Part shown: positions 7,710-55,358 of the stretch, piece by piece
How positions within the stretch are numbered: the first letter of the stretch is position 1
Layout of the letters: every line of letters starts with the position of its first letter
Origin: Halomarina rubra
Lineage (GTDB): Archaea > Halobacteriota > Halobacteria > Halobacteriales > Haloarculaceae
NCBI RefSeq assembly: GCF_023699475.1
Contig: NZ_JALXFV010000008.1
Location: 150,231-214,230 of the forward strand
Direction: 5' to 3'
DNA: 64,000 nucleotides
The notes under the pieces: generated by a model
Told to the model about the DNA's origin: nothing
The model's input: the letters and a program-made list of their open reading frames with translations, nothing else
Database searches by the model: none
Position numbers and translations under genes: made by a program

Positions 7710-8345
7710 ATGGCCGCTTACGGTCGGCCGACACTGCGTGACCTGTTCGACGAGTCCCCCACGCCGCACATCGCGCACCCCCCGCGCACCCATCACCGAG
7801 ACTACTACATCGCGACCGATGGGTCGTTCCGGGAGTCGAACGGCGGACTGGGTGTCGTCATCGAGACCCGCGACGGCGAGACCGTCGCACGGCGCTCGGT
7901 GGCAGACGCCGTCCCCGACAACAACGTCGCCGAGTACCGGGCACTCCACCTCGGCCTCGACCTCCTGGCCGCGCGTGCGCCCCGCGACGCCAGCGTGGGT
8001 ATCGTCCTCGACCACGACGACCTCGCCGCCAACGTCAATCGCGCGGCGCTGGCCGCCCGTCAACCCCGACAGGGACCGCCCCACCCGTATCGTGTCCCCA
8101 TCACCACCCGCCACCACTGGCGGGGCATCCGGGCACGTGTCGCCGGCTTCCGCGAGATTCGCGCCGCCCGCATCGACAGCGGCGTCAACCCCGCTCACTG
8201 CCTGGCGAACGCCCCCGACCAGTACGCCTTCGTCAACGACGAACCCGCTCGGTGCGTCCTGCCGTCGCTGACGACGGAGTCGCCGGGACCGCAGTACCCG
8301 CCGCCGTCGCGGGCGAACCGCCACACCGGCAACGCCAGCGACTGA
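7710..8345 (+). CDS. RNase H-fold protein, catalytic set incomplete
   Basis: A 211-residue protein. Residues about 28-110 read as an RNase HI fold: YYIATDGSF (first Asp), a glycine-rich strand GGLGVVIETR, then DNNVAEYRALHLGLDLL (Glu) and VLDHDDLAANVN (third acid). The position where active RNase HI has Asp in an N-x-x-A-D segment reads VNPAHCLAN, so the fourth acid looks replaced. The Pro/Arg-rich tail (about 185-211) is low-complexity. RNase HI removes RNA from RNA/DNA hybrids; this member may bind rather than cut. Single gene with its own promoter. Confidence 0.7.
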   Translation: MAAYGRPTLRDLFDESPTPHIAHPPRTHHRDYYIATDGSFRESNGGLGVVIETRDGETVARRSVADAVPDNNVAEYRALHLGLDLLAARAPRDASVGIVLDHDDLAANVNRAALAARQPRQGPPHPYRVPITTRHHWRGIRARVAGFREIRAARIDSGVNPAHCLANAPDQYAFVNDEPARCVLPSLTTESPGPQYPPPSRANRHTGNASD

Positions 8346-8422
8346 CCACCGCCCGTTCGCCCGCCTCCTCGCCCGACGCCTCCGCAAGGACGACGCTTTC
8401 CTCCGACGCTTCGCCCGAAGAG

Positions 8423-8429
8423 ATTTAGT
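8423..8429 (+). promoter_or_regulatory. TATA box of small membrane protein gene
   Basis: ATTTAGT lies 26 bases before the ATG at 8452 and supports that start. Confidence 0.5.
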
Positions 8430-8451
8430 CTTCAACCAACAAGTCCGAACC

Positions 8452-8739
8452 ATGTCCCTCGAGCAGACGGTCGCCGAGAACCTCGGGTACACCCTCCTGA
8501 GCGGTCCCGTCCTCGCCGCGCTCACCTACCTCGTCGGCTCGGCGATGTTCGGCACCGCGGCGGCGGTCGGACTCGCCGTCGGCGTCTACGCGCTCGGGAT
8601 AGCGCTCGTGGCGCGCCGCTCCGAGGACGACGCCGGCAGCGACGGCGTAGCCGACGCAGACGACCCCGAGGACCGGGAGCGTCGACGCGACGACCGGGAG
8701 AAGGAGTTGGCGGCCGAGGCGAGCAACGGACTGTTCTGA
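8452..8739 (+). CDS. Small membrane protein, two transmembrane helices
   Basis: A 95-residue protein with hydrophobic segments at about 15-35 (LLSGPVLAALTYLVGSAMFG) and 38-58 (AAAVGLAVGVYALGIALVA), followed by a highly charged acidic/basic tail of 35 residues (many Asp, Glu and Arg) that would lie in the cytoplasm. No family recognised. The gene has its own promoter and is convergent with the GHMP gene. Confidence 0.75.
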   Translation: MSLEQTVAENLGYTLLSGPVLAALTYLVGSAMFGTAAAVGLAVGVYALGIALVARRSEDDAGSDGVADADDPEDRERRRDDREKELAAEASNGLF

Positions 8740-8767
8740 GCGGTCGGCCCGCCCGTCGCCGCGACGC

Positions 8768-9724
8768 TCACCGCACCGTCGCGCCCTCGTTGCGTCCGGC
8801 GACGACGCGGACGTCGCCCTCGATGCCGACCTCGTCGAGCGCCCGCTGGCCCGCCTCCCGTGCGCCGTCGGCGTTCGCGCGGTCGGTGACGCCGTAGACG
8901 GTCGGTCCCCACGAGGACTGGCCGACGCCGCCGACGGCCGCCGCGTCGCCGAGGGCGGCGACGAGTTCGCCGGCGGGTGGGCGGTAGACGCCGCCCTGCT
9001 CGTCGGCGTACCACGCGCCGTTGAGGCGGCCGAACTCCCCGACCGCGTGACCGAAGCGGTCGCGGTCGCCCGTCGCGACGGCGGGCAGGAGACCGCGGAC
9101 GAGCGTCGCCGCGAGGTCGTCGGCGATGGCGGGGTCGGCGCGCTCGACGACCGCGCGCATGCTGTCGTCCTCCGTCTGGCCGGACTTTCCAGTCCCCTCC
9201 GGAACCACGAGCAGGAACCGCCAGTCCTCGGGTATCGGGTGCCGTGAGACGACCGGCGGGACCGACCACTCGCCGCGAGCGGGCGGCGTCGTGGTGAACC
9301 GCTCGGTGGGGTGGCCAGCGTCGACGACGAACCCGCCGGTCTCGAACGTGGCGACGCCGACGCCCGAGCGCCCGCCTCGACCCAGTGCCGGCGCGAGCGT
9401 CCGCACCTCGGGGTCGCGGTCGTAGGCGTAGGCGACCGCCGCGAGCGTCGCCAGCGTGTGCTGGGTGCCGCTACCGAGGCCGACGTGCCGCGGGAGCCCC
9501 TCGATCAGTCGGACACGAGCGCCCGGAACGTCGAGGCACTCACAGACCGCCCGCGTCGTCGATTCGAGTTCCGGGTCTGCGTCGACGCCGTCGCCACGGG
9601 TCGCCTCGACGACGACCCGTGGCTCGTCGAGTGCGAGGCCGACGCCGCCGTAGAGGCGTTCGTGGGCGAGCGAGAGGTTCGTGAATCCGACGTGGAGGCG
9701 CGCTCCCGTCTCGACCCTGACCAT
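8768..9724 (-). CDS. GHMP-superfamily protein of the beta-RFAP synthase type
   Basis: A 318-residue protein with GHMP-kinase architecture. The N-terminus TGARLHVGFTNLS is the strand that opens archaeal beta-ribofuranosylaminobenzene 5'-phosphate (RFAP) synthases. The segment LPRHVGLGSGTQHTLA is the GHMP motif 2 loop, GRGGRSGVGVATFETGGFV a second conserved block, and VGGVGQSSWGPTVYG the C-terminal motif 3. RFAP synthase condenses p-aminobenzoate-type substrates with PRPP in methanopterin synthesis. Haloarchaea use folates, so the real substrate here may differ. Two glycosyltransferase genes follow upstream on the same strand. A CTTTCACC box lies about 25 bases before the start. Confidence 0.85.
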   Translation of the reverse strand: MVRVETGARLHVGFTNLSLAHERLYGGVGLALDEPRVVVEATRGDGVDADPELESTTRAVCECLDVPGARVRLIEGLPRHVGLGSGTQHTLATLAAVAYAYDRDPEVRTLAPALGRGGRSGVGVATFETGGFVVDAGHPTERFTTTPPARGEWSVPPVVSRHPIPEDWRFLLVVPEGTGKSGQTEDDSMRAVVERADPAIADDLAATLVRGLLPAVATGDRDRFGHAVGEFGRLNGAWYADEQGGVYRPPAGELVAALGDAAAVGGVGQSSWGPTVYGVTDRANADGAREAGQRALDEVGIEGDVRVVAGRNEGATVR

Positions 9725-44844: not shown

Positions 44845-45030
44845 GGACCACGGTCGGCGACACGACGTGCTGAGCCTCGGGGCTTTAGGTGGTCATCTGC
44901 CAGGCCGTGACAGCACTACGACTGTAGCCCCGTGAACGACCGTGAGGGTCAGTCCGTCGACCGGTCGTCGCACACCTGTCGCCACCCCGGTACCGTCGGC
45001 TTGAAGTCGGGGCGGCGGGAATCCGCCAGT

Positions 45031-46287
45031 ATGAACCCCGGAGACCGCGTCCACGTCGAACGCGGCGACACCGAGTACGAGGGTATCCTGATGCCCTCCA
45101 CGTCCGACACCGAGGTCGTCGTCAAACTCGACGGCGGCTACAACGTCGGCATCGCCCGCGAGCACAGCGACGTCGAGGTGCTGGAGACCGACGTGTTCGC
45201 CGTCGGTGAGAGCGAGACGAACGACGCCTCGACCGTCGAGTTCGACGACGACCTGCCGACCGTCGCGCTCATCTCGACGGGCGGCACCATCGCCTCGACC
45301 GTCGACTACCGCACCGGCGCGGTCACCGCTCAATTCGACGCCGAGGACGTGCTTCGCGCCGTTCCGGACCTCGCGGGCCGGGCGAACTACCGCGGCCGGG
45401 TCGTCGCCAACATCCTCTCGGAGAACATGACGCCCGACGTCTGGCAGGACCTCGCCCGGGCGGTCTACGAGGAAGTCGAAGCGGGTGCCGACGGCGTCGT
45501 CGTCATGCACGGCACCGACACGATGCAGTACACCGCCAGCGCGCTGTCGTTCATGCTCGACACGCCCGTCCCCGTCGTCTTCACCGGCTCGCAGCGTTCG
45601 GCGGACCGTCCCTCCTCGGACAACGTGATGAACGCGGTCTGTGCGGTCGAGGCCGCGAAGGCCGACTGCGCGGAGGTCATGGTCTGTATGCACGCCACCG
45701 AGTCCGACGACCGCTGTGCGCTGCATCGCGGCACGCGCGTGCGGAAGAACCACACCTCCCGGCGTGACGCCTTCGAGACCGTCGGTGCGGAACCGCTCGG
45801 GACGGCCGACTACGCCGGCGTCGACAGCGAGGAGGTCACCGTCTCGTTCCGTCGCCCACACGTCGAGCGTGACGAACACGAGGTGGCGCTCCACGACGAC
45901 CTGGAGACCGACGTCGAACTGCTGAAGTTCGTCCCCGGGATGGACCCACAGTTCCTCGACGTGCTGGAGGGGAAGGCGGGCGTCGTCCTCGAAGGAACGG
46001 GTCTGGGCCACGTCCACACCGACTTCATCGACCGTATCGGGGACCTGGTCGACGACGGGACGACCGTCGTGATGACCAGTCAGTGCGTCGAGGGGCGAGT
46101 CTGTGACCGCGTCTACGACACCGGTCGGGACCTGCTGGACGCGGGCGTCGTCGAAGGGGAGGACCTCCTCCCGGAGACCGCGCTCGTGAAACTGATGTGG
46201 GCGCTGGCGAACGAGGACGACCCGGAGACGGCGATGGGTCGCCCACTCGCGGGTGAACTGACCGAGCGCTCGGTGCCGTGGACGTGA
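45031..46287 (+). CDS. gatD: Glu-tRNA(Gln) amidotransferase subunit D
   Basis: A 418-residue archaeal-type GatD, the asparaginase-like subunit that with GatE converts Glu-tRNA(Gln) to Gln-tRNA(Gln). An N-terminal small beta domain (NPGDRVHVERGDTEYEG) precedes an asparaginase fold with VALISTGGTIASTVDYRTGA, VVMHGTDTMQYTASALSF and VFTGSQRSADRPSSD. The Thr, Thr/Asp and Lys residues of asparaginase activity are in these motifs. gatE is elsewhere. The ATG at 45031 (MNPGDRV) is the family start. The next gene's start overlaps its stop. Confidence 0.96.
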   Translation: MNPGDRVHVERGDTEYEGILMPSTSDTEVVVKLDGGYNVGIAREHSDVEVLETDVFAVGESETNDASTVEFDDDLPTVALISTGGTIASTVDYRTGAVTAQFDAEDVLRAVPDLAGRANYRGRVVANILSENMTPDVWQDLARAVYEEVEAGADGVVVMHGTDTMQYTASALSFMLDTPVPVVFTGSQRSADRPSSDNVMNAVCAVEAAKADCAEVMVCMHATESDDRCALHRGTRVRKNHTSRRDAFETVGAEPLGTADYAGVDSEEVTVSFRRPHVERDEHEVALHDDLETDVELLKFVPGMDPQFLDVLEGKAGVVLEGTGLGHVHTDFIDRIGDLVDDGTTVVMTSQCVEGRVCDRVYDTGRDLLDAGVVEGEDLLPETALVKLMWALANEDDPETAMGRPLAGELTERSVPWT

Positions 46288-47201
46288 CCCCGACCATCGA
46301 GCGCCGGCAGGTCCGTCCCGAGGACAAGGAGCACGTCGTCGCGTTCACCGAGGACACGTGGGCCGACCGCGGCGGCAGCGACTACATCCCCCACATCTTC
46401 GACGACTGGATCGCGGCCGACGGCGACGACCAGCGGACGTTCGTCCTGGACGTGGACGACGGCGAGGACGTCGCCGGCATCTGCCAGGGCGTCCTGCTGA
46501 GCGACGAGGAGGCGTGGGCACAGGGGATGCGCGTCAACCCCGACTACCGCGGGCACGGCGTCAGCCTCGACCTGACCCACGGCGTCTTCGAGTGGGCCGC
46601 CGACGCCGGCGCGACCGTCTGTCGGAACATGGTGTTCTCCTGGAACATGGCGGGTCTGGGGCAGTCGCGAGCGGCCGGGTTCGACGCCGCCACCGAGTTC
46701 CGCTGGGCGCACCCCACTCCCGACGCCGACGCCGAGAGCGACCACGAGGTCACCGACGACCCCGCCGCTACCTGGCGGTGTTGGCAGGACTCCCACGCCC
46801 GCGACCACCTCCGGGGCCTCGCGCTCGACACGGACGAGTCGTGGGCGCTGTCGGAACTCACGCGCGACCGCCTCCAGCGCGCGAGCGACGAGACGCGGAC
46901 GTTCGCGGTCCAGGACCAGGGCACCCCCGCCATGGCGTTCCGGACCCGAACCTACGAGCGGCCGAACGAGGACGGCGAACAGGTCCGGTGGGCGGAGTAC
47001 GGCGTCGGCGCGTGGGAACACGTCGACCACGCGCGGTCGCTGTTCGCGGCCATCCAGCGCGACGCCGCGAGCCTCGACGCCGACCAGACGCGCCTGCTGA
47101 TTCCCGAGACGGTCCACCACGTCTCGGACGTGGCGTTCGCTCGGGCGGGCAGTTCCGACGAACCGGACTTCGTGATGGCCGCGGACCTCACCGACTGGTA
47201 G
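46278..47201 (+). CDS. GNAT-family N-acetyltransferase
   Basis: A 307-residue protein whose first half is a GNAT fold: QVRPEDKEHVVAFTEDTWAD, then MRVNPDYRGHGVSLDLTHGV (the acetyl-CoA loop in altered R-G-x-G form), and a typical C-strand. The second half (about 165-307) is another GNAT-like unit without a clear CoA loop, as in tandem GNATs. The GTG at 46278 overlaps the gatD stop; a GTG at 46284 would give the classic GTGA coupling and two fewer residues. The acceptor is unknown; coupling with gatD hints at a link to aminoacyl-tRNA. Confidence 0.8.
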   Translation: MDVTPTIERRQVRPEDKEHVVAFTEDTWADRGGSDYIPHIFDDWIAADGDDQRTFVLDVDDGEDVAGICQGVLLSDEEAWAQGMRVNPDYRGHGVSLDLTHGVFEWAADAGATVCRNMVFSWNMAGLGQSRAAGFDAATEFRWAHPTPDADAESDHEVTDDPAATWRCWQDSHARDHLRGLALDTDESWALSELTRDRLQRASDETRTFAVQDQGTPAMAFRTRTYERPNEDGEQVRWAEYGVGAWEHVDHARSLFAAIQRDAASLDADQTRLLIPETVHHVSDVAFARAGSSDEPDFVMAADLTDW

Positions 47202-47248
47202 GGCCGGTCACCGGTGGCGGTTCGGGCGGGTCCACATCGCCACCGGTC

Positions 47249-47713
47249 TCAACTCGCGTTCGCCCGTGGCTCGCCCCCGGTCGCGCGAACGACCCCCATG
47301 ACGAGGAACTCCACGAGCAACAGCACCGGCGGGAACCCGAGGACGACGACGGTGTACGGGTCGATTCCCGTCGCGTCGGTGACGAACGGCACCGCGACGA
47401 CGAGTGCGAGCGCGGCGAACGCGGTGTACCGTCGCGTTCGCGGGGTGTCGTTCCCGAAGTCGAGACGGGGGAGCGCGCGACGCAGGAGCCACACCTGCGC
47501 GTAGACGGCGAGGACGAACACGACGAGCGCGACGGCGCTCGCGGTGTTGGCGTACAGCGTCCGCGGGATGCCCATGCCGACGAGCACCAGCGGGAAGTGG
47601 GGTTTCGCGAGGTGGACGAGGCCTGTCACCAGCCACCCGTTGAGCCAGCAGACGAACAGCACCCACCCGAGGACGTACGGGCGTTCGACGGAGACACGCG
47701 CGAGCCACGACAT
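47249..47713 (-). CDS. Membrane protein with four helices
   Basis: A 154-residue protein starting MSWLARVSVERPYVLGWVLF. Hydrophobic segments are at about 12-32, 55-75, 90-108 and 115-140, with a basic loop (RRALPRLDFGNDTPRTRRYT) between. No catalytic motif. The ATG at 47713 is the natural start. It is convergent with the GNAT gene and divergent from the next one. Function unknown. Confidence 0.75.
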   Translation of the reverse strand: MSWLARVSVERPYVLGWVLFVCWLNGWLVTGLVHLAKPHFPLVLVGMGIPRTLYANTASAVALVVFVLAVYAQVWLLRRALPRLDFGNDTPRTRRYTAFAALALVVAVPFVTDATGIDPYTVVVLGFPPVLLLVEFLVMGVVRATGGEPRANAS

Positions 47714-47863
47714 ACCACAACGTGGAACTGTCGAGTCACAAGAACCCTTCCATTGCTCACACGCGAGTCTCACCGATGGCGCACCGGTTCGACGACCACG
47801 ACCGTTCGGCACCCGCAACGTCGCTGTTGATACCCGTCGGACGACTACGATGCTCGACAGCTC

Positions 47864-48733
47864 GTGACCCTCGATGTTATCGCCGACACAGGCGCAGACG
47901 ACGGTGGAGCGACGGCTGCCGACACGACACAGGCCATCGCACGCCTCGTTCGGCGGGCCATCGTCGCGCTGTTACAGTCGACCGTCGGGGGCGACGAGCG
48001 AGCGGGCGACGAAGCGCTCGCGGAACTCGACGACGTGCGCCGGACGCTCGCGGCACTCCTGGAGACGGTCGACCCGGCGACGATAGCCGCTGCAGTCGAT
48101 CCCGAACGCCTCCTGATGCTCGTCGACTGGTCGGGCGTCCCCGAAGCGCTCTCGACCGGCGACTACCGCTCGGTCATCGCCTACGAGAACATCCCCGAGT
48201 TCCTCGACGCTCCTGCCCTCCTCGATGCGACGGACGTTCGCGAGGGGTGGCGACAGAGCCGCGACCTGAGCGAGACCGTCGGAGACCTGGCCGACCGAGT
48301 CGTCGGCCCCGAGACGGACGACGCCGCCGCCGCCGACCCGGAGACCGAGGAGGAGCGAGCGGTCGAAGCGGCCAACGACGCCAAAGAGCGCGATGCGGGT
48401 ATCGAAGTCGCGAAGTCGCTGTCGACGACCGACAAGGGTCGTCGCTTCCTCGTCCAGAAGGCGGTGAGCGACGCCGTCGAAGACGCCCGTGAAGAAATCC
48501 TCGACGCTCACGACCGCATCGACGCGGCGGTCGCCGACGTGGACGAACGGGTCGGCCGCGTGGGACGACCCAACTCGCGGAACCCGACGGCGTTCTCGAC
48601 GCTCCCTCGGTCACGCGCCCGGGTCGGTCGCGCGACGACGTACTCGACGGTGCCGACCGAAACGCGCTACTCCGACGCGCCGAACTTCGAGCGCATCTAC
48701 GGCCCTCGGTTCGACCGTCGCGACGAGACGTAG
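47864..48733 (+). CDS. Haloarchaeal protein with Tyr/Thr-rich C-terminal tail
   Basis: A 289-residue soluble acidic protein starting at a GTG (47864). Residues 20-70 and 150-235 are helical and Glu/Asp-rich, with AREEILDAHDRIDAAVADVD resembling a coiled coil. The last 50 residues are different: FSTLPRSR, YSTVPTETRYS and NFERIYGPRF carry aromatic/Thr/Pro motifs in near-regular spacing, with little charge. No family recognised. The tail may bind a partner. No promoter box of confidence was seen. Confidence 0.7.
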   Translation: MTLDVIADTGADDGGATAADTTQAIARLVRRAIVALLQSTVGGDERAGDEALAELDDVRRTLAALLETVDPATIAAAVDPERLLMLVDWSGVPEALSTGDYRSVIAYENIPEFLDAPALLDATDVREGWRQSRDLSETVGDLADRVVGPETDDAAAADPETEEERAVEAANDAKERDAGIEVAKSLSTTDKGRRFLVQKAVSDAVEDAREEILDAHDRIDAAVADVDERVGRVGRPNSRNPTAFSTLPRSRARVGRATTYSTVPTETRYSDAPNFERIYGPRFDRRDET

Positions 48734-48781
48734 TCCGTCGGTTCGTCCGGTTCGACTCGTCGCCGCGACGGAGTCGATGAC

Positions 48782-49060
48782 TCAGCCCCCGGAGACCGGC
48801 GGGAACATCGCGAGTTCGTCGCCCGCTTCCAGGGTCGTCTCGTAGCCCGCGTCGGCGACGAACGGGTTCTGGGAGTTCCGCAGGACGCGGATGTGGTCGC
48901 GGAGGTTCCCCTCCTCGTCGGTGACCTCCTCGCGGAGTTCGGGGTGGGTCTCGAACAGGGCGTCGAGGGCGTCGCGGAACGTGGCCCCCGCTTCGACGTC
49001 GACGTCGACTTCGCGTTCGCCCGCCGTCTCGGCGAGGTTGGCGAACAGCTTCCAGCGCAT
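48782..49060 (-). CDS. samp1: Ubiquitin-like SAMP1 (MoaD family)
   Basis: A 92-residue beta-grasp protein. It starts MRWKLFANLAETAGEREVDV, has the acidic helix ATFRDALDALFETHPELREE, the insert LRDHIRVLRN, and ends LAMFPPVSGG. This matches the haloarchaeal SAMP1 as I remember it from Haloferax, which is joined to proteins through its Gly-Gly end by the E1-like UbaA and also acts in molybdopterin synthesis as a MoaD. It stands as a single gene. It contrasts with the Cys-Cys-ended protein at 3190. The start is the ATG at 49060. Confidence 0.93.
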   Translation of the reverse strand: MRWKLFANLAETAGEREVDVDVEAGATFRDALDALFETHPELREEVTDEEGNLRDHIRVLRNSQNPFVADAGYETTLEAGDELAMFPPVSGG

Positions 49061-49141: not shown

Positions 49142-50326
49142 TCAGTTCTCACTCGGGGTCGCCGCGACCTGCACGCCGTCGTTGGTCTCCAGGCGCCGGA
49201 GCGCATCGGGTCTACCAACGGCGTAGAGCGTCTCGCCGCCGGCGACCGTCGTCGCCGGCTCGGGCAGCGTCGTCACGCCGCCGTCCGCTCGGCGGACCGC
49301 GACGACCGTCGCTGCGAGCGTCCCGACCGACTGGCCGACGAGCGGACTGCCCTCGCTGACGGTGACGACGGCCAGCGTCTCCTCGGCGGCCCGGAACAGC
49401 GCGGCGAACTCGCGGTCGACGCGCGCCTCCGCGGGGAGGGTCACCAGCCGATAGCTCGTCTCGCCGTCGACGGCTGCCGCGTCGGCGTCGTCGAGCGCGA
49501 GCGTCGCCACGTCCTCGGACACCCCGCGGAGTTCACCGGTGACGACCCGTTCGGGCGGGTCCCACACCTGGACCAGGTCGCCCGCACTCGCGCCGGTAGC
49601 GGGGTCGGCCCGGACGGCGACCGCCGCGTGGCCCGGCGGGAGTGTCGGCCCGATGCCTGCCGCCCGGCCACCGAGTGCGAGGTACTCGACGGTGCCGTCG
49701 GGGGCGAGGTCGACGTCGACGTGGCCGACCTCGTAGTCGTCGCGAAGCCGGTCGACGAGTCGGCTTCGGAGTTCCTCGACGGTGAGGCCACGCGGGAAGC
49801 CGAACGACGCGCCTTCGAGCCGTGCTCTCGTCTCGGGGGCGACCGGGTCGTGGTCGGGGATGTCGTCGACGGTGTCGGGGAGCATGACGGTGATCTGCCG
49901 GCCGACCGCTCGAACGATGTCGCGGGCGTCGGGGGCGTCGTCGAACACCGACCGCGCGATGCGGTCGCCTGCGCGCCCCGCGAGGAAGGCGACGACGGTC
50001 GCCGCGAGGAACGTCCCGACGTTGAACACGACCGGTCCTTCGAGCAACGGGCCGTCCTGGTTGACCATCGCGTCGCCGAGCGCCGTCTTCGTGTTCAACC
50101 CGAGGGCGACGACGCTGATACCGGCGAGCACGGATAGCCCGTCGGGAACCTGTGTCTGGGCGTACCAGCGGTGGAGACCGCCGACCGCGCCGGCGACGAG
50201 CGCCCCGAAGACGACCAGCCCCCCGCCGACGAGCAGCGGGACGAGGAGGTCGTTCGCGATGGCCTGCAACTGCGCCTGCGAGGAGAGTGCGCCGAGGGCG
50301 GCGCTCGTGTGGCGAGGAACGCTCAC
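49142..50326 (-). CDS. Membrane protein with C-terminal RCK-C domain (B)
   Basis: A 394-residue protein. Helices at about 25-50, 62-85 and 100-120 form the membrane part (LLVGGGLVVFGALVAGAVGG, LSVLAGISVVALGL, FLAATVVAFLAGRAGDRIA). About 140-394 is cytoplasmic. A repeated unit HAAVAVRADPATGASAGDLVQV leads to an RCK-C/TrkA-C domain (VVTVSEGSPLVGQSVGTLAA ... LYAVGRPDALRRLE). No pore (TVGYG) or nucleotide Rossmann domain is present. It overlaps protein A by four bases (ATGA) and is its paralog. A role in K+ or other ion control beside the channel is inferred. Confidence 0.85.
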   Translation of the reverse strand: MSVPRHTSAALGALSSQAQLQAIANDLLVPLLVGGGLVVFGALVAGAVGGLHRWYAQTQVPDGLSVLAGISVVALGLNTKTALGDAMVNQDGPLLEGPVVFNVGTFLAATVVAFLAGRAGDRIARSVFDDAPDARDIVRAVGRQITVMLPDTVDDIPDHDPVAPETRARLEGASFGFPRGLTVEELRSRLVDRLRDDYEVGHVDVDLAPDGTVEYLALGGRAAGIGPTLPPGHAAVAVRADPATGASAGDLVQVWDPPERVVTGELRGVSEDVATLALDDADAAAVDGETSYRLVTLPAEARVDREFAALFRAAEETLAVVTVSEGSPLVGQSVGTLAATVVAVRRADGGVTTLPEPATTVAGGETLYAVGRPDALRRLETNDGVQVAATPSEN

Positions 50327-51516
50327 GCGACCACCTCACCGAAGCGGTCGAGCGCCGCTCCCGTTCCGACGGCGAACAGTTCGTCGCCCGTCTCCAGTCG
50401 GGTCTCGCCGGACGGTGCGAACTGCCAGTGACCGTCGTGGCGTACCGCCAGCACCGCCACGTCGTAGCGCTCGCGCACACTGGCCTCCGCGAGTGTCGTC
50501 CCCGCGAGGTCGCCGTCGAGGACTGCGACCCGTCTGACGCGTCGCCCCGCCCGGCGCAGCAACGACAGCAGTTCGAACTCGCGGCGTTGGCCGCGCGCTC
50601 CTACGACGAGCGTCGTCGTCTCGGCCGCCAGGACTGCCGGCGCGTCCGAGCGGGTGACCGAGAGCGTCACTCGTCCCGCGCCACCGGCCGCCTCGACCGA
50701 AGGCGGACGTTGCGGAGTGTCCGCCTCGTCTCCGTCCCCATCCTCGACGTCGTCACTTCGTGTCACCACCGGGACCCCGAGCACGGTCGCCTCGACGGTC
50801 GTCTCGGGTGTCCGGACGGTCACTTCGTCACCCGGCGCGAGGCCGGTCGGGACGAGCGTCTCGACGGTGACCGCGCGGTGGCCGTCGGGGACGCGTTTCG
50901 AGAGTCCCGATAGCGGCGGGGCCACGCCGACGGTCGCCCGGCCACGCTCGTCGATGGCGACCGACACCTCCGCGAGGTCGAACTCGCCGCGCAGCCGGTC
51001 GGCGAAGCGCGTCTCCAACTCGCGGACGGGGAGGTCCGCGGGGAGCGTCGCGCTGAAATCGGCGACACGCGTCCGGAGGTCGTGGCTCGCCGGTGGGAAC
51101 CCCTCGATATCCTCGACGGTGCCGTGGACGCGGACCCGTGCGTCGCCGCCGACACGCTCGACGAGGTCCGAAGAGAGCGTCCGGTTGCGCAGGGCACGGA
51201 ACGACACCCGCTTGGGGAAGGTCGTCCCCATCGCGTCTCCCTTCGCGTGTGCGTACAGCGACATCATCACGATGACGACGATGGCGACGACGACCCGCCC
51301 ACCACCGCCGAGGACGGCGGGGTCCTGGAGCGCGAGCAGGCCACCCTGGACGCCCGCGACGGCGAGACCGAGGACGACCACACCGAACCCGGGGATGGAG
51401 ATGCCGGTGAAGTAGCGGACGGTGAACCCCAGCACCCACGAGATGAGCGCCGGGATGACGCCCGTGAGCAGCCCGAGGTAGACGCCCACAAGGAGTTCGA
51501 CGGGGAGCGATGGCAT
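50323..51516 (-). CDS. Membrane protein with C-terminal RCK-C domain (A)
   Basis: A 397-residue paralog of the protein encoded just after it. Hydrophobic segments at about 5-28, 35-55 and 68-86 (VGVYLGLLTGVIPALISWVL, IPGFGVVVLGLAVAGVQGG, RVVVAIVVIVMMSLYA) precede a cytoplasmic region with HRAVTVETLVPTGLAPGDEV and a final RCK-C domain (VLDGDLAGTTLAEASVRERY, DELFAVGTGAALDRFG). Residues 125-200 (ELETRFADRLRGEFDLAEV) align with the same part of protein B. The ATG at 51516 (MPSLPVE) is chosen; the upstream open frame is low-complexity. Divergent from the K+ channel gene. Confidence 0.85.
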   Translation of the reverse strand: MPSLPVELLVGVYLGLLTGVIPALISWVLGFTVRYFTGISIPGFGVVVLGLAVAGVQGGLLALQDPAVLGGGGRVVVAIVVIVMMSLYAHAKGDAMGTTFPKRVSFRALRNRTLSSDLVERVGGDARVRVHGTVEDIEGFPPASHDLRTRVADFSATLPADLPVRELETRFADRLRGEFDLAEVSVAIDERGRATVGVAPPLSGLSKRVPDGHRAVTVETLVPTGLAPGDEVTVRTPETTVEATVLGVPVVTRSDDVEDGDGDEADTPQRPPSVEAAGGAGRVTLSVTRSDAPAVLAAETTTLVVGARGQRREFELLSLLRRAGRRVRRVAVLDGDLAGTTLAEASVRERYDVAVLAVRHDGHWQFAPSGETRLETGDELFAVGTGAALDRFGEVVA

Positions 51517-51637
51517 GACAGTCGCTTGGAACCGACCGACAAAGGGTTGACGAACCGACGCACGAGGGGTCGCTCGGCGTTCGACCCCGCCCGACCGCGA
51601 ACGGGCGGCTTTTGTACCACTACGGCCACCGACCGGT

Positions 51638-52810
51638 ATGGCCGACGACCATCCCTCGACGGCACGCCTGTTGCGGGTCCGGTTCGCCGTCGTGTTGGTG
51701 TTCGTCACCGCCGTCCTCTCGTTCGTCACGGGCCTAGCCGCCATCGGCCTGGAGTCCCTCGACTTCTCGGTGGGCGTCGTCGGCGTCGTTCCGCAGGTCA
51801 TCCGAGCGGCGGTGTCGTTCACCGCCGTCCTGACGGGGTTCCTGTTGCTCGTCACCGCCTACGCGCTCCGGAAACGCTTCGAGGCGGGGTGGTACCTCGC
51901 ACTGGTGTTGCTGCCGCTGTCGGCGCTCCAGGGCGTGTTGCTCGTCAGCGCGCTCTCCGTCCCGCTGGTCGTGCTCTCGCTCGTGGCGATACCGGGCGTC
52001 TACGTCAACCGGTCGGCGTTCGACCGCGAGGAGTGGCTGTCGACCAGCCAGCAGGCCGCGCTCGGTGCGCTCGTCGGTAGTCTCGCCTACGGGACCGCCG
52101 GCGCGTGGTTCCTCCGCGAGGAGTTCTCTGAGGGTGCCATCACCGCCCCCGTCGACGCGCTGTACTTCGCCGTCGTCACCGCCAGCACCGTCGGCTACGG
52201 CGACGTCATCCCCACGACGTCGACGGTCGCTCGCCTGTTCACGCTGACGTACCTCGTCGTCGGCATCGCCAGTTTCACCGCCGCGCTGGGGACCCTGCTC
52301 GGTCCCGCCATCGAAGCCCGCTTCGCAAGTGCCCTCGGAACCATGACCGACTCATCACTCGAACTGCTGGACGACCACGTCATCGTGGTCGGCTTCAGCG
52401 ACCTGACCGAACCCATCGTATCGGAGCTCGACCGCGAGGACGTCCCGTTCGTCGTCATCACGCGCCACCCCGAGCGCGCCACCGTGCTCCGCGACCGGGG
52501 CATCGACGTCTACACCGGCGACCCGAGCAGCGAAGCACCCCTCCACGCCGTCGGCATCGAGCGCGCCCAGTCGCTCATCGCCGCGACCGAGGACGACGCG
52601 CAGGACGCGCTCGCAATCCTCACGGCCCGAGAGCTCAACCCCGAGGTCCGCATCGTCGCGGCGGCGACCGACGCCGACAACCAGCGAAAGCTCAAACGGG
52701 CCGGCGCGGACACCGTCATCAGCCCCTCGGTGCTGGGGGGCCACCTCCTCGCGCTCTCGGCGTCGGGCGGGGACGCCGAACAGATCGCCGCCCGCGTCCT
52801 CCGGGAGTGA
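51638..52810 (+). CDS. K+ channel with RCK (TrkA-N) domain
   Basis: A 390-residue channel subunit. Hydrophobic helices at about 10-40, 65-85 and 95-115 precede the pore helix and the selectivity filter TASTVGYGDVIP (about 183-194). Then a second helix, and from about 245 a Rossmann domain (DHVIVVGFSDLTEPIVSEL, LRDRGIDVYTGD, VRIVAAATDADNQRKLKRAG) that senses nucleotide or ligand. The T-V-G-Y-G-D filter predicts K+ selectivity. It ends without RCK-C, which may be provided by the paired membrane proteins on the other strand. A start at 51638 with ATG is natural. Confidence 0.93.
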   Translation: MADDHPSTARLLRVRFAVVLVFVTAVLSFVTGLAAIGLESLDFSVGVVGVVPQVIRAAVSFTAVLTGFLLLVTAYALRKRFEAGWYLALVLLPLSALQGVLLVSALSVPLVVLSLVAIPGVYVNRSAFDREEWLSTSQQAALGALVGSLAYGTAGAWFLREEFSEGAITAPVDALYFAVVTASTVGYGDVIPTTSTVARLFTLTYLVVGIASFTAALGTLLGPAIEARFASALGTMTDSSLELLDDHVIVVGFSDLTEPIVSELDREDVPFVVITRHPERATVLRDRGIDVYTGDPSSEAPLHAVGIERAQSLIAATEDDAQDALAILTARELNPEVRIVAAATDADNQRKLKRAGADTVISPSVLGGHLLALSASGGDAEQIAARVLRE

Positions 52811-53333: not shown

Positions 53334-54803
53334 TCAGAACCGGAAGTTCCGGTCGACGATGACCACGTCGGTGTCCAGGCTCCGGACCCGCTCGAACGTC
53401 GGGCGGGTGATGAACCGGGAGGCCGCAGAGCGGTCCTGGCTCGCGCCCATGATGACGAGGTCGTAGCTCCGGGCGTTCACCGCGAGGAAGTCGGCGATGT
53501 CCGCCCGCGAGATGCGGGTCTCGACGGCGGCGTTCGCCGTCTCGACGAGGTCCCGGAGCATCGTCTCGGCGTGGCGACGGCTCTCCTCGCTCTCGATGCA
53601 GTGACAGACCGCGACCCGGCCGGTCCGCCCCGAGAGGCGGGCCGCGAAGTCGAGCATCTCGTGGGCGACGTCGCCGGCCTTCCGGACGGGAACCATCACG
53701 TGTTTCCAGCGGGTCCGGCCGTCACACGAACGGTGGACGAGGACGTCGACCTCGCCGCGGAACAGTTCGCGGACGAACGGCGAGAGCGACCCGCGATGGG
53801 TCTCGTAGGGCGCGGCGATGAGGTCGCAGTTCGTGTTCCGGGCGGTCTGGAGAACCGTCGTCGCCGCGTTCGGCCCCTCGCTCGCGACGACCACCTCACA
53901 GGGGACGCCCACCTCGGTCCGGATGGCGGCGGCGCGCGCTTCGAGGTCGGTGGCGGCGCGGGCGGCCGCGCGCTCCTCGGCCCGACCGGCGTCGTCGGCC
54001 GACCGTCCGCGCTGGCCGCCGTCGGTCGCCACGTCGTCGCCCTGGGTGGTCTCGACCTCGCGTTCGGCGTCTGCGACCGCCGCGTCGCCCACGAGGTCCA
54101 GGAGGACGACCTTCCCGGCGTCGTGGGCCGCCGCGAGACGCGCGCCCAGCATCGCCGTCGCTACCGGTTCGTCCCCTCGCCACGGGACGAGCACGTGGTC
54201 GTCGCCTTTCGTCGACTGGTAGAGGTAGCGTGCGCGTTCGCTGTACACCTGCCGCCGCCAGAAGACGAACACGAGCGCGACGACGCCCGAGGCGACGGCG
54301 ATGTTCAGCACGTACAGCACTCGTGACCCCGGCACGCCGTCGGTGACCAACACCAGCAGCGCCGAGGAGAACGCCGGTGGAACCTCCACGTCGAGCGCCC
54401 ACGCCGACGCCCCGGTGAGGAAGACGGCCAGAGCGGCGCTCCCGGCGTGGACGACCGTCCCGTCGGGCGCGTACACTAGCGCCCCGATACGGAACGCGAC
54501 CAGTCCACAGACCGCCCCGAGCGTCAGGCCGACGACGAACTGCACCGGCGAGGAGTACCGGCCCGTCGGGTCGGCGAACAGCATGTACGTCGCCGCCGCC
54601 AGCGGCGGGAACAGCAGGAACGAGAACGCCGGCACTACGTTCGAGACGGCGGTGACCAGCGCCACCACCAGCGGGACGAGCACCAGCGCCGAGACGTGGA
54701 CGAGGTTCCGCGTCGTCTCCAGCCACACCCGAAGCTCTCGCAACTCGCGGCGCTCCCGTCGTCGAACGCGTCGCAGGAGGTCGCGAACCCGGTCACCGCG
54801 CAT
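53334..54803 (-). CDS. HPP-type membrane domain fused to two Usp domains
   Basis: A 489-residue fusion. Residues 1-30 are basic. About 30-180 hold membrane helices with the HPP-like segment FLLFPPLAAATYMLFADPTG and GLTLGAVCGLVAFRIGALVY. Residues about 205-345 form one Usp-like domain (DDHVLVPWRGDEPVATAMLG, then CDLIAAPYETHRG) and about 362-489 a second (WKHVMVPVRKAGDVAHEMLD, then YDLVIMGASQDRSAASRF). The ATP signature G-x2-G is not perfect in either. HPP proteins are linked to nitrite or anion transport; the fusion could be a transporter with stress-ligand sensing. Start at ATG 54803. Confidence 0.85.
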   Translation of the reverse strand: MRGDRVRDLLRRVRRRERRELRELRVWLETTRNLVHVSALVLVPLVVALVTAVSNVVPAFSFLLFPPLAAATYMLFADPTGRYSSPVQFVVGLTLGAVCGLVAFRIGALVYAPDGTVVHAGSAALAVFLTGASAWALDVEVPPAFSSALLVLVTDGVPGSRVLYVLNIAVASGVVALVFVFWRRQVYSERARYLYQSTKGDDHVLVPWRGDEPVATAMLGARLAAAHDAGKVVLLDLVGDAAVADAEREVETTQGDDVATDGGQRGRSADDAGRAEERAAARAATDLEARAAAIRTEVGVPCEVVVASEGPNAATTVLQTARNTNCDLIAAPYETHRGSLSPFVRELFRGEVDVLVHRSCDGRTRWKHVMVPVRKAGDVAHEMLDFAARLSGRTGRVAVCHCIESEESRRHAETMLRDLVETANAAVETRISRADIADFLAVNARSYDLVIMGASQDRSAASRFITRPTFERVRSLDTDVVIVDRNFRF

Positions 54804-54869
54804 ACGCAGAGTGCGACGGCCACCGTGTATTGCTGTTTCGCTCCCCGGAGCGAGGTCACGACCCGAAAG

Positions 54870-54877
54870 CGTATACC
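54870..54877 (+). promoter_or_regulatory. TATA box of lipoprotein gene at 54900
   Basis: CGTATACC is centred about 27 bases before the ATG at 54900, in agreement with a leaderless start. Confidence 0.5.
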
Positions 54878-54899
54878 GGTCGACAGAATCGTCGGGAGT

Positions 54900-55358
54900 A
54901 TGGTCCGTGCCCTCCACGCACTGCTCGTCTGTTGTGTCCTGCTCGCCGGTTGTACGTCGGGGGTCGGCGACGCGCCCGCGTCCGCCGGGTCCGAAAACGA
55001 CGGCTACACCGTCGCCCCCGGCGAGCGCGTCTCGGTGTCGTTCGCCTTCGAGGACGTCCGCGAACTACACGCCGAAGGCACGAACGTCTCGTCGTGGCCC
55101 GGCGAGTGGGACGCCGTGACCGTCGAGGCGGCGTCGCTCTCGCCGTCGCCGTCGGCCGGCGTCGACACGCTCCCGCCGTACCACCTCTGGGACACCCCGA
55201 CCGACGTGGACGCGACGTTCGCGTTCACCGCGAGCGAGTCGGCTCCTCCCGGCGAGTACACCTTCGACGTCACCGCGTGGGACGACGGGAACCACAGCCA
55301 CGAGAACGGCACGACCGAGTCGGTCACGATTCGCGTCGTCGGGAACGAGAGCGGCTGA
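54900..55358 (+). CDS. Small lipoprotein, unknown function
   Basis: A 152-residue lipoprotein. The signal RALHALLVCCVLLAGCTSG has a lipobox (L-A-G-C) without twin arginines, so Sec export is likely. The mature domain is a small all-beta acidic unit with VSVSFAFEDVRELHAEGTNV and PGEYTFDVTAWDDGNHSHEN, resembling Ig-like or PKD-type folds. It may sit on the outer surface. It is convergent with uridine phosphorylase. Confidence 0.8.
   Translation: MVRALHALLVCCVLLAGCTSGVGDAPASAGSENDGYTVAPGERVSVSFAFEDVRELHAEGTNVSSWPGEWDAVTVEAASLSPSPSAGVDTLPPYHLWDTPTDVDATFAFTASESAPPGEYTFDVTAWDDGNHSHENGTTESVTIRVVGNESG

Follow-up and report, generated by a model that had tools for sequence, protein, structure and literature searches.

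A pair of paralogous haloarchaeal proteins with C-terminal RCK_C domains as a candidate membrane-anchored regulator of K+ flux

In several K+ transport systems, such as KhtT with KhtU and TrkA with TrkH, a separate regulatory subunit gates the membrane transporter, and the RCK_C domain serves as a dimerisation and ligand domain in KtrA, MthK, KhtT and BusR. Haloarchaea offset molar external salt with molar internal KCl, and to our knowledge the gating of their K+ fluxes is poorly known. Among the closest described regulators, KhtT is a cytosolic, single-chain protein that binds cyclic di-adenosine monophosphate (c-di-AMP; PMC10117811), and in TM1088A/B of Thermotoga maritima two homologous chains share one ring (PMC4380455). 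Here we analyse a stretch of 64,000 nt of Halomarina rubra (NZ_JALXFV010000008.1:150,231-214,230, forward strand; hereafter the window, whose positions are used as coordinates) in which two adjacent genes, A and B, encode proteins ending in RCK_C and a divergent gene encodes a K+ channel (Table 1). We regard it as moderately probable that A and B assemble, as its two subunits, into a heteromeric RCK_C regulator that is anchored in the membrane, resembles KhtT and TrkA in principle and has exchangeable K+-flux partners. As judged from the sequences, such a regulator would be specific to Halobacteriales.

Architecture of A, B and the channel

A and B are paralogues over their full length, because the two families align end to end in profile-profile comparison (hhalign, E 3.3e-38, 348 columns); the local identity between the two proteins is about 31% (E 2e-12). 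The first-pass annotation of this DNA had recognised the paralogy but gave the joint between the genes as ATGA, whereas the four bases shared by the stop of B and the start of A read GTGA. TrkA_C (RCK_C, PF02080) is the sole Pfam domain above the curated cut-off of 27 bits in A (33.8 bits) and in B (53 bits), at the C-terminus in both, which makes them members of the RCK_C domain proteins; matches at E<=0.01 are found in 56 of 61 A relatives and 58 of 69 B relatives. The RCK_N Rossmann domain (PF02254) was detected by Pfam neither in A or B nor across their families. The domain plan read by the first-pass annotation (a C-terminal RCK_C, no pore and no Rossmann domain) therefore stands, as do the three membrane helices that it gave each protein, since family-averaged hydropathy places three N-terminal hydrophobic segments in A and in B. 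The charges of the loops favour a cytoplasmic C-terminus for both proteins. The two motifs that it described as common to A and B were also located, at A185 and B166 (ELxxRxxDRLR) and at A232 and B212 (GHxAVxV...GDxVxV). The exact DRLR block is rare in the families (1/76 A, 20/76 B) and hence no family trait, whereas the looser ELxxR...RL is common (38/76 A, 48/76 B).

The AlphaFold models of A and B are locally confident (mean predicted local distance difference test, pLDDT, of 82.8 and 87.6). Foldseek groups their RCK_C parts with those of MthK, KhtT, BusR and TM1088, with KhtT as the best match for A and one of the best for B. Both proteins have an alpha/beta region and a small beta-barrel between their membrane part and RCK_C; the barrel is weakly similar to RcpC/CpaB in B and to SMUBP-2 1B in A. 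Kinship of the B barrel with CpaB/RcpC of the Flp pilus was considered and rejected: the match of the B barrel taken alone has an E of 4e-5 and does not reach the curated cut-off, and the A barrel prefers SMUBP-2 1B. We thus claim only a small beta-barrel. The long A proteins of Haloarcula-type genomes (up to 603 aa) owe their length not to further domains but to an acidic low-complexity C-terminal tail of roughly 200 residues (L042, L043, L046, L050, L053). RefSeq haloarchaeal records name the homologues of both A and B "TrkA C-terminal domain-containing protein", a label that mentions neither membrane part, pairing nor function, and in the literature library that we searched no paper describing the pair was found.

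The third gene encodes a Kch/MthK-type K+ channel with a selectivity filter and RCK_N. Its Pfam domains are Ion_trans_2 and TrkA_N, without TrkA_C, and it aligns to MthK residues 28-249 (pore and RCK_N), ending before the MthK RCK_C, in agreement with the first-pass description of a channel with pore and Rossmann domain that lacks RCK_C. The TVGYGD filter is present in 34/34 channels of the set, from which two further entries that are not this channel were left out. Among curated models, E. coli Kch (PRK10537, E 9e-56) comes closest to the channel, although its 189 bits stay below the equivalog cut-off of 425, and the solved RCK piece of Kch (1id1) matches the RCK_N region of the channel. This piece has 153 residues, and we take E. 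coli Kch itself to lack RCK_C. The divergent intergenic regions of relatives, mostly 62-163 bp, have a TATA-like element per side near the start codons (read by eye), and the sequence suggests that the divergent transcripts of B and the channel may be leaderless. In one locus a stand-alone RCK_N-like open reading frame of 151 aa lies directly beside the channel gene on the opposite strand (L217:4241-4696). An HPP-type membrane region fused to a Usp domain (53334-54917 in the window) is a recurrent neighbour of the channel, even in the absence of A and B.

Table 1. Features of the A/B locus in the window.
Feature	Positions	Strand	Description
SAMP1	48782-49060	-	ubiquitin-like small modifier; downstream of A, co-directional with B-A; gene-order control
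A	49142-50326	-	394 aa, GTG start; three hydrophobic segments, alpha/beta region, small beta-barrel, C-terminal RCK_C
B	50323-51516	-	397 aa, ATG start; paralogue of A, same plan, stronger RCK_C
Divergent intergenic region B/channel	51517-51637	.	121 bp
K+ channel	51638-52810	+	390 aa; membrane part with TVGYGD filter and RCK_N (TrkA_N), without RCK_C

Distribution and genomic contexts of the pair

We counted the genes in 146 sampled Halobacteriales genomes, searching for the channel within 8 kb of the pair. The main B family is present in 101 of them (about two thirds), and A lies directly downstream of B in 99 of these 101, far more than chance would explain. The channel is upstream of B in 81 of the 101 genomes, divergent in 79 (mostly at 104-420 bp) and co-directional in 2 (at 56 bp). 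All relatives identified by name belong to Halobacteriales, and a phylum-wide profile search gave no full-length homologue of A or B outside this order, the matches being confined to the RCK_C region.

The strongest evidence for a role of A and B in K+ transport comes from type II, a monophyletic group nested in the A/B family (17 loci, support 1.0), whose occurrence is sporadic and partly plasmid-borne. Type II pairs are found in three K+ contexts: a co-directional channel-B-A cluster with 56 bp between channel and B (G012/G039), homologues of KhtT and KhtU next to the pair (G023/G054), and, on Natrinema plasmids, an island that encodes cation:proton antiporters together with RCK proteins (G492/G580). 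K+ genes are near 3 of the 9 type II lineages with enough sequence to be counted; of 40 haloarchaeal control regions, each 20 kb long, one contains such a gene (Fisher p 0.016). Counted by locus the contrast is 6/16 against 1/40 (p 0.0014), a comparison that ignores relatedness among loci. Some K+ query frames (L001, L006) were antisense artefacts, and their matches, including one of two control matches, were ignored. The sample is small, but a K+ role is favoured because three type II lineages adjoin channel, K+/H+ antiporter or RCK genes. In one type I lineage (L102-L105), KhtT/KhtU genes stand between the pair and the channel. The haloarchaeal KhtT/KhtU homologues beside A/B (L105:7287-7766, 7905-9119; L077:2016-3839) have an RCK_C that also lacks the strict c-di-AMP signature.

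A further 12 pairs, at 25-40% identity, have diverged. In the copies tested, the A-like protein keeps a weak TrkA_C and the B-like protein has no detectable one. The persistence of the pair when its context changes suggests both that A and B form a heteromer and that the design is broader than a K+ channel subunit; co-inheritance, with adjacency in 99 of 101 genomes and in the 12 diverged pairs, likewise suggests a heteromer. The ATPase neighbours of diverged pairs are seen in L089-L101 (e.g., L089:3948-6418, L097:4069-6677). More tentatively, A and B may represent a new class of RCK_C regulator, a heteromeric pair of sensors embedded in the membrane, with exchangeable partners: the channel in most haloarchaea, an antiporter in others and, in place of ion flux, MinD/KaiC-type ATPases in the diverged branch.

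Proposed role and competing explanations

In the mechanism that we propose, the RCK_C-bearing C-terminal parts of A and B would lie in the cytoplasm, where the two proteins would pair as a heteromer via these domains. A ligand or an ionic change would alter the A-B RCK_C dimer, and the altered dimer would signal to a separately encoded K+-flux protein. The likely partner in most lineages, which the regulator would contact, is the divergent Kch/MthK-type channel; in some lineages it would probably be a KhtU-type K+/H+ antiporter. A and B would modulate the channel rather than complete it, because the channel is retained in genomes without them.

Several observations weigh against this proposal. 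The first concerns the ligand. Haloferax volcanii makes c-di-AMP (PMC6741144, PMC8646023), which made this nucleotide an attractive candidate, but the published RCK_C signature, (I/L)(I/L)X2DX1RX5N(I/L)(I/L) (PMC10117811), is complete in 0/76 A and 0/76 B, and its D.R.....N core is found in 0/76 A and 1/76 B. By this signature A and B do not qualify as c-di-AMP receptors of the KhtT/KtrA type, and in its absence no ligand can be named. The predicted template modelling scores (pTM) of the AlphaFold models are low (0.35, 0.43) and leave the arrangement of the domains of A and B undefined. As for genomic context, 18 genomes with an A/B pair have no channel nearby, in 6 of the 9 type II lineages K+ genes are absent to a distance of about 10 kb, and none of the 12 diverged pairs has a K+ gene nearby. 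Many of these diverged pairs adjoin ATPases instead (MinD/ParA-KaiC-like of the DUF7125 family, MinD, HerA-like or T2SSE-type), and given these clusters the A/B family is not tied to K+ alone.

Linkage itself is open to a different interpretation, namely that A and B are functionally unlinked to the channel, that their proximity reflects ancestral gene order and that they have another role (transporter, envelope or SAMP1-related). We consider this unlikely, but part of it must be accepted. SAMP1, a ubiquitin-like modifier for which we know of no role in K+ transport and which is probably not part of the A/B system, is found in 65 of 78 named loci and the channel in 71 of 78, i.e., their linkage is nearly equal. 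The conserved block that contains SAMP1 includes GatD-like and acetyltransferase-like genes as well. Since SAMP1 is about as closely linked as the channel, much of the type I linkage is conserved gene order. We therefore discounted, after this control, the idea that linkage proves function: the linkage of the channel within a conserved block is weaker functional evidence than it appears. The lack of nearby K+ genes in most type II and all diverged pairs, and the MinD/KaiC/HerA-type ATPases beside the latter, are also in line with a role unrelated to the channel. Two points count against it: RCK_C is typical of the control of K+ transport, and type II pairs, located away from the block, occur in K+ contexts of three kinds, in excess of the control regions. 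In the window, the block of GatD-like gene, acetyltransferase-like gene and SAMP1, which adjoins A/B in many genomes, spans 44932-49060.

Less plausible still, in our view, is an obligate heteromer of all three proteins that would act as a single ligand-gated K+ channel, with A and B supplying the missing RCK_C. The channel does stop exactly where RCK_C would start, the RCK_C of B matches MthK 258-332, i.e., the part that the channel lacks, the divergent linkage is close in most genomes (and the genes form a channel-B-A cluster in G012/G039), and TM1088A/B is a precedent for a gating ring with split chains (PMC4380455). However, channels that do not adjoin an intact A/B pair, mostly from genomes without the pair, also end right after RCK_N in 20/20 neighbourhoods, bar short or disordered tails. 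The missing RCK_C is thus a property of the channel family and not a sign that A and B complete it, and we rejected it as specific evidence. Moreover, 33 genomes carry the channel without the main pair. Three loci (L207, L210, L212) retain the block, channel included, but lack the pair, and a fourth (L223, G031:C1:556585-557132) has fragments of A beside an intact channel, where the pair has apparently decayed while the channel was kept. Some pairs adjoin an antiporter instead of the channel.

The first-pass annotation had asked whether the three genes stay together in haloarchaea, and had named wide occurrence of A and B away from K+ channels as the observation that would speak against its three-polypeptide ligand-gated K+ system. 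The truth lies in between: the channel accompanies B in most genomes, but is absent from the vicinity of the pair in the 18 mentioned above, in most of type II and in all 12 diverged pairs. Because pair and channel each often occur alone, they do not make up a single fixed machine of three parts. Of that system, the K+ role is favoured by linkage and by the type II contexts, while an obligate complex that completes the channel is not supported, because the channel is alike without A and B, the pair and the channel are often apart, and SAMP1 is about equally linked. Finally, it is very doubtful that the main target of A and B is a CPA2 K+/H+ antiporter, of the KhtU type or another, that most genomes encode elsewhere, and that the proximity of the channel is incidental: KhtT/KhtU or CPA2 genes adjoin the pair in G023/G054, G492/G580 and L102-L105, and the best Foldseek matches of A are KhtT, but those loci have their own KhtT, the expected regulator, and antiporter neighbours are rare relative to the channel.

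Comparison with described RCK_C systems

The membrane-anchored two-chain regulator that we favour can be set against four described arrangements. KhtT (Bacillus KhtTU; Streptomyces CpeA) is, as proposed for A and B, a separate regulator that ends in RCK_C and is encoded beside its membrane partner, and some A/B pairs do have KhtTU homologues next to them. Unlike KhtT, A and B have three membrane segments, extra domains and two paralogous chains, and they lack the c-di-AMP signature. The hydrophobic segments, the different middle region and the presence of antiporter neighbours in only few lineages set them apart from KhtT-type antiporter regulators. In the rings of TrkA and KtrA, too, the RCK proteins that control a K+ transporter have genes of their own. 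Yet the chains of TrkA, KtrA and TM1088 contain RCK_N and are soluble, whereas RCK_N is missing from A and B, which are predicted to be embedded in the membrane, so they are not gating-ring subunits of the TrkA/KtrA type, which are soluble and combine RCK_N with RCK_C. In the Ca2+-gated K+ channel MthK, RCK_N and RCK_C are both part of the channel chain, whereas the channel studied here lacks RCK_C. E. coli Kch has the same plan as this channel, but no partner of the A/B type is known for it.

The departure of the proposed regulator from KhtT and TrkA would therefore be that the regulator is itself embedded in the membrane and made of two paralogous chains. Being conserved, uncharacterised and mostly located next to a K+ channel, the pair offers a concrete candidate for such a regulator, which can be tested in tractable genera. 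The diverged pairs beside MinD/KaiC-like ATPases suggest that the A/B design was also recruited outside ion transport. If the target of the pair is the channel or a KhtU-type antiporter, then a membrane-anchored two-chain design would join the soluble rings, the soluble subunits and the channel-fused domains.

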